This document shows positions 63,513 to 63,681 of a stretch of DNA of 64,000 bases, piece after piece. Positions within the stretch are counted from its first letter, which is position 1. Each line of letters begins with the position of its first letter. Source of the stretch: Calditrichota bacterium (GTDB lineage: Bacteria > Calditrichota > Calditrichia > RBG-13-44-9 > J042); contig JAADJD010000020.1 of NCBI GenBank assembly GCA_013150955.1, positions 142,066 to 206,065 of the forward strand, in the 5' to 3' direction. The notes under the pieces are model-generated. The model saw nothing but the letters and a program-made list of their open reading frames with translations, was not told the DNA's origin and searched no databases. The translations under genes were made by a program, and so were the position numbers.

Positions 63513-63545
63513 AAAAAAAGCCCTTCCGGCTAACCGGAAGGGCTT
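63513..63545 (-). terminator. Intrinsic terminator in the 5' leader of metY
   Basis: Minus strand AAGCCCTTCCGG-TTAG-CCGGAAGGGCTT followed by T run; 12-bp perfect stem, about 30 bp upstream of metY. Confidence 0.93.
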
Positions 63546-63576
63546 CTGCGGTGATAAAATATGATTTTCTATTCAA

Positions 63577-63672
63577 TTACGTATGGACATCCCTTCCGGT
63601 GTTTGGCGGTGGCAAACACATCATACAACACATCAGACAGCACATTGCAGCACGAAGGGATGTCATACGTAA
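63577..63672 (-). promoter_or_regulatory. Leader (1:2) hairpin of the putative metY attenuator
   Basis: TTACGTATGACATCCCTTC (63654-63672) pairs with GAAGGGATGTCCATACGTAA (63577-63596): 19 bp with one bulged base. Confidence 0.8.
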
Positions 63673-63681
63673 GTCAAACAT
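63577..63681 (-). CDS. Met/Cys-rich leader peptide, 34 aa, unannotated
   Basis: ATG TTT GAC TTA CGT ATG ACA ... encodes MFDLRMTSLRAAMCCLMCCMMCLPPPNTGRDVHT*; SD-like AGAGG 4 nt before ATG; internal alternative ATG at 63666. Confidence 0.82.
   Translation of the reverse strand: MFDLRMTSLRAAMCCLMCCMMCLPPPNTGRDVHT

Follow-up and report, generated by a model that had tools for sequence, protein, structure and literature searches.

Control of methionine genes usually falls to SAM riboswitches, T-boxes or repressors. The his, trp and leu attenuators follow another plan. In these, a short leader ORF with many codons for the amino acid that the pathway makes is combined with protector, antiterminator and terminator hairpins, and the leader stops at the second RNA segment. 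To our knowledge, no attenuator with Met codons has been described, perhaps because a shortage of methionine also starves initiation. For metY in particular, no description of a Met or Met/Cys leader peptide was found in the open-access literature.

Several described systems come close in one respect or another. In Actinobacteria, Cys leader peptides precede sulphur genes without conserved terminator hairpins (PMC1262725); PMC13236596 also cites Canestrari 2020 for such leaders. In Rhodobacterales, the uORFC-8-2 motif before cysS, with its tandem Cys codons and intrinsic terminator, has been predicted to be an attenuator (PMC8632094). Tandems of a Met T-box and a SAM-I riboswitch sense both the charge of Met-tRNA and SAM for methionine genes (PMC9481103), and the tRNA-sensing SAM-I riboswitch of Xanthomonas likewise responds to Met-tRNA charge and SAM ahead of methionine genes (PMC7270179). 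Attenuation-like leaders ahead of amino-acid operons have been noted without detail in Flavobacterium (PMC9723704).

The locus described here lies before metY in a Calditrichota genome, near one end of the window, that is, the whole 64-kb stretch of DNA that was analysed. The original prediction, made from this DNA alone, placed a leader ORF, four RNA segments and a terminator there, and all were found where it had put them (see the table). It also held that the leader codons match the pathway product. Nine of the ten residues in the central run are Met or Cys, against a background of 2.3% for Met plus Cys among long-ORF residues of the window (0.5% for Cys alone), and this enrichment is kept in relatives. 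Past its start codon, the leader contains five Met and five Cys. Apart from overlapping readings of this same run, no second cluster with at least 6 of 10 Met/Cys residues occurs in any of the six frames over the 64 kb.

The genes downstream form the aspartate-to-homocysteine operon that had been proposed: metY, the thrA-like fusion, metX and asd follow each other on one strand with short gaps, and AGGAGG stands ahead of metY at 63496-63491 (-). Neither metY nor metX was matched strongly in a second genome of the window's genus (G001) or in one of its family (G002); the operon is therefore patchy even inside the genus.

Features of the leader region and the downstream operon (positions in the window)
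Feature	Position	Strand	Basis
Possible promoter TTGATT - 17 nt - TTTTAT, 57 nt before leader ATG	63710..63738	-	weak pattern match
Possible ribosome-binding site AGAGG of leader ORF	63686..63690	-	sequence
Leader ORF MFDLRMTSLRAAMCCLMCCMMCLPPPNTGRDVHT, 34 aa	63577..63681	-	translated ORF; homologue in G003
Segment 1 TTACGTATGACATCCCTTC, protector 5' arm	63654..63672	-	repeat search and folding
Met/Cys control codons MCCLMCCMMC, codons 13-22	63616..63645	-	six-frame composition scan
Segment 2 ACCGGAAGGGATGTCCATACGTAA, within leader ORF end	63577..63600	-	repeats, 2:3 duplex comparison
Antiterminator 5' arm ACCGGAAGGG, part of segment 2	63600-63591	-	
Segment 3 GCCCTTCCGGT, antiterminator 3' arm and terminator 5' arm	63533..63543	-	terminator scan, covariation
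Segment 4 CCGGAAGGGC and T run, terminator 3' arm	63513..63529	-	terminator scan
metY, O-acetylhomoserine sulfhydrylase	62158..63480	-	NCBIfam TIGR01326
thrA-like fused aspartokinase-homoserine dehydrogenase	59660..62146	-	NCBIfam
metX, homoserine O-acetyltransferase	58376..59659	-	NCBIfam
asd, aspartate-semialdehyde dehydrogenase	57324..58355	-	NCBIfam

Repeat analysis reproduced the predicted arms. Segments 1 and 2 pair over 19 bp with one bulged base, 2 and 3 over 10 bp (ACCGGAAGGG/CCCTTCCGGT), and 3 and 4 over 12 bp (AAGCCCTTCCGG/CCGGAAGGGCTT; 14 with the outer A-U pairs) followed by a T run. Computed on their own, the three pairings have stabilities of -36.7 (1:2), -24.9 (3:4) and -19.6 (2:3) kcal/mol. 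The 3:4 hairpin is an intrinsic terminator (63547-63516, minus strand, -24.9 kcal/mol), and with its T run it lies about 35 nt upstream of the metY start. The 1:2 arms form a long inverted repeat; a repeat or mobile element was ruled out as its origin, the element being single-copy in the genome.

The minimum free energy structure of full leaders contains 3:4 every time. It cannot discriminate the stalled state, and folding was therefore repeated without segment 4. When segment 4 is omitted, as not yet made, and a ribosome is placed in the Met/Cys run, the predicted fold is 2:3 in all 12 modules tested. With segment 4 present, 3:4 prevails. The protector 1:2 is strong in the window and in G003, a genome of another genus in the same family, and moderate in L063 and L058; in several other modules it does not rise above shuffles.

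These parts suggest a ribosome-mediated transcription attenuator of the his/trp type, with Met and Cys control codons sensing the charged tRNAs, a reading to which we give a probability of about 0.85. RNA polymerase would start just upstream of the leader, and a ribosome would translate it. With ample charged tRNA-Met and tRNA-Cys, this ribosome would reach the stop codon and mask segment 2, or 1:2 would re-form behind it; either way 3:4 could form and transcription would end before metY. If charged tRNA-Met or tRNA-Cys is scarce, the ribosome would stall within the Met/Cys run before it reaches segment 2. The free segment 2 would then pair with segment 3 before segment 4 is made, allowing metY-thrA-metX-asd to be transcribed. 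What the sequences show is the parts, their geometry, conservation, covariation and metY specificity; the promoter position, translation, stalling, read-through and the relative weight of the two amino acids are inferred. As a sensor of Met the device should be weaker, since Met shortage also lowers initiation on the leader and an untranslated leader should terminate.

Pattern matches suggest that transcription starts upstream of the leader. Boxes resembling TTGACA-17-TATAAT lie 42-67 nt upstream of the leader ATG in L042, L045, L058, L066, L067 and L039a, and weaker TTGAnn sites lie at -57 in the window, -50 in G003 and -48 in G007. A start downstream of the leader had been named as evidence against attenuation; in most modules, promoter-like boxes were instead found ahead of the leader; that of the window is weak.

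An example for a homologous leader is found in G003. Its metY is 77% identical, and the leader homologue MFFEMRTILSIAMCMMMCMPGWQSGRDRYM lies upstream. It carries CCGGAAGGG at -21 to -12 relative to the leader stop, the same position as in the window, and has the terminator GCCCTTCCGGAGTTTCCGGAAGGGC, then a T run, before metY. When the whole leader was used to search the DNA of relatives, mostly terminator fragments and chance matches came back, the G003 leader being the only full match. Upstream of the latter, on the opposite strand (L034:980-1081), a TPP riboswitch precedes a divergent TonB-receptor-like gene.

A wider comparison covered 600 nt upstream of each of 107 metY loci, 27 from genomes and 80 from records. 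A short sense ORF with at least 6 of 10 Met/Cys residues occurs in 23 of the 107 regions, and an antisense one in none; an earlier count of the best Met/Cys score per 10 residues had given 9 for sense, 4 for antisense and 5 for shuffles. Thirteen modules before metY combine leader and terminator. Eight belong to seven Calditrichota genomes: that of the window (G000), G003, G006 (two in series), G007, G010, G022 and G032. The others are found in Balneolaceae (L061, L063), Melioribacter-type Ignavibacteria (L066, and the weaker L067 with only two Cys) and a Gemmatimonadota MAG (L068, from a record titled Gemmatimonadetes). The module is not confined to Calditrichota. Two kinds of candidate were discarded: MFLRMRTKMVWMMIKF in G018/L060 has no terminator downstream, and weak ORFs such as L123 and L095 were treated as chance.

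The leader sequence is variable but remains rich in Met and Cys, which make up 93 of the 322 residues of twelve modules. One leader has Met only (L035) and one Cys only (L067), and Met dominates in L034, L039 and L042. Pro comes soon after the Met/Cys run in several leaders; Pro-Pro-Pro is found in the window leader only. The extra stall site at Leu-Pro-Pro-Pro suggested in the original prediction is neither favoured nor contradicted by the comparison. The distance from the last Met/Cys codon to segment 2 is 5-18 nt in every module, provided that the later Cys codon of L042 is included, and segment 2 always overlaps the leader stop or adjoins it. The Met/Cys codons and the arms are kept in relatives, and changes in segment 2 are matched in segment 3, which is the conservation that had been asked of the comparison.

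This matching can be put in numbers. Among twelve modules, the 2:3 duplex has a mean of -16.2 kcal/mol with a locus's own arms and -12.4 kcal/mol with arms of other loci. No permutation among 20000 was as good as the own pairs; relatedness is ignored in this figure and some modules are close kin, so it is indicative and not a probability. Likewise, 93 of 108 pairs are formed at nine 2:3 positions against 77.7 by permutation, with 0 of 20000 permutations reaching 93, kinship again not being modelled. One position shows C-G, A-U and G-C, and another has changed from T-A to C-G. In 11 of 12 modules the duplex is better than shuffles at 0.04 or better. With leader, terminator, covarying antiterminator and stall-codon placement all present and kept in relatives, the reading as a his/trp/leu-type attenuator agrees with the comparison.

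Specificity was gauged with the pattern GAAGGG, 22-52 nt, CCCTTC, 3-20 nt, GAAGGG-N-TTTT in 41 genomes of the phylum. All four of its matches stand before metY, and the reversed control pattern gave none. Since the pattern misses the modules of L042, L045 and L058, whose sequences are different, it measures specificity and not number.

Rfam covariance models, including SAM-I, T-box and other families, gave no match at the gathering threshold in the window. Within the phylum, SAM-I (RF00162) lies upstream of metY in 17 of 20 genomes with metY, and the three exceptions, G000, G003 and G006, are exactly those with a leader attenuator directly before metY. SAM-I is found nowhere in the window genome or in G003. 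G006 carries two SAM-I aptamers in tandem before a metX paralogue (G006:C45:58175-58534), and its metY has two tandem leader attenuators. At eight loci (G007, G010, G022, G032, L061, L063, L066 and L067) SAM-I follows the leader module. The two in series probably make a two-input switch, in which transcription would continue only if both charged Met/Cys-tRNA and SAM are low. The suggestion that the leader is an alternative to the SAM riboswitch therefore holds in the window genome and G003, while elsewhere the leader is often stacked before SAM-I.

A second arrangement occurs in Chitinophagaceae, Cytophagales and other Bacteroidota. Here Cys/Met leaders without intrinsic terminator lie downstream of SAM-I, about 70-155 nt before metY; they were left out of the count of 13 modules. 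They are mostly Cys, for instance MCCCICCMP or, at the C-terminus, NNFYCCCCCCC. Chitinophagaceae-type leaders (L083, L096, L106, L110, L115, L116, L126, L131, L137) lie downstream of SAM-I wherever it was searched for and end in a near-constant CCMP, their last codons forming the hairpin TATGCC/GGCATA. Those of L088 and L099 (Cytophagales, Raineya) end in CCCCCL and CCCCCCC and resemble mycobacterial polycysteine leaders. The Bacteroidota leaders probably have another mode of action, either at the level of translation or by way of Rho, and the CCMP type is probably a distinct, translational sulphur leader.

At the very end of the window, the 17 nt at positions 63984-64000 repeat the leader start in inverted orientation (AATGTTTGACTTACGTA after GAGG), and AGGGATGTCAT lies close by (L003:2035-2071). 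An assembly gap of 5 N just past position 64000 adjoins it. The copy may have arisen in assembly, or it may be where a second, divergent leader begins whose remainder fell into the gap.

Other explanations can be given for the same leader. What the control codons report could be mainly cysteine, or sulphide supply seen as cysteine, with the Met codons secondary. Cys is the rarer residue in ordinary proteins, which makes its codons the more marked enrichment, Bacteroidota leaders are mostly Cys, and Met shortage would block initiation as well. The Met-only and Met-dominated leaders argue against this, as does the even share of Met and Cys in the window leader, and we regard it as possible but rather unlikely. 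An arrest peptide in the manner of TnaC, with the ribosome stalled by the nascent Met/Cys-rich chain and a small effector (methionine, SAM or cysteine, for example) and not by a lack of charged tRNA, is improbable. It would fit the Pro that closely follows the run (CLPPP in the window, CMPG in G003, CIPP in L068) and the near-constant CCMP before the stop in Chitinophagaceae. However, arrest peptides need defined residues, and the terminator-type leaders keep composition and not order, the Met-only L035 and Cys-only L067 being the extremes; the constancy of CCMP is partly explained by the hairpin that its codons form.

That the ORF arose by chance, over an ordinary terminator or over an inverted repeat from a mobile element, and has no regulatory role is very improbable. 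A local scan found 2 terminators where shuffles predict 2.1, so the terminator count by itself is unremarkable and the case rests on the combination of parts and their conservation; the inverted copy beside the assembly gap could also be taken in this sense. Yet the element is single-copy, nothing comparable to its Met/Cys cluster occurs elsewhere in the window, and it is conserved with covariation in other genera and phyla, comparative data that already contradict a chance origin.

Attenuation by a ribosome translating Met and Cys codons thus remains the preferred reading. On balance, the metY leaders appear to represent an undescribed and widespread class of sulphur-amino-acid leaders in Calditrichota, Bacteroidota and neighbours, stacked with SAM-I in either order as gates for charged Met/Cys-tRNA and SAM, and standing alone in the window's lineage, in a genome devoid of SAM-I. 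A working Met/Cys leader in series with SAM-I would be a natural two-signal switch, and a working leader, alone or before SAM-I, would make the puzzle of Met and initiation directly testable and document that riboswitch and leader peptide have been exchanged on one operon inside one phylum.

With the his, trp and leu attenuators, the module shares the short product-codon-rich leader ORF, the antiterminator and terminator hairpins and the leader stop at segment 2, and in the window and G003 also a strong protector hairpin. It differs in its Met and Cys codons, in its occurrence in Calditrichota and neighbouring phyla, and in often standing in series with SAM-I. The Cys leaders of Actinobacteria likewise have a run of Cys codons in a leader ORF ahead of sulphur genes, but here an intrinsic terminator, a covarying antiterminator and Met codons are added; the terminator-less Bacteroidota leaders are nearer to them than the window module is. 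The uORFC-8-2 motif belongs to a tRNA synthetase gene of alpha-proteobacteria and uses Cys only. In T-box/SAM-I tandems and the Xanthomonas SAM-I riboswitch, the RNA binds tRNA directly, whereas the sensor proposed here is the ribosome translating the Met/Cys leader. Finally, SAM-I itself holds the same place before the same gene in 17 of the phylum's 20 metY genomes, but it is absent from the window genome, where a leader without an aptamer stands before metY.
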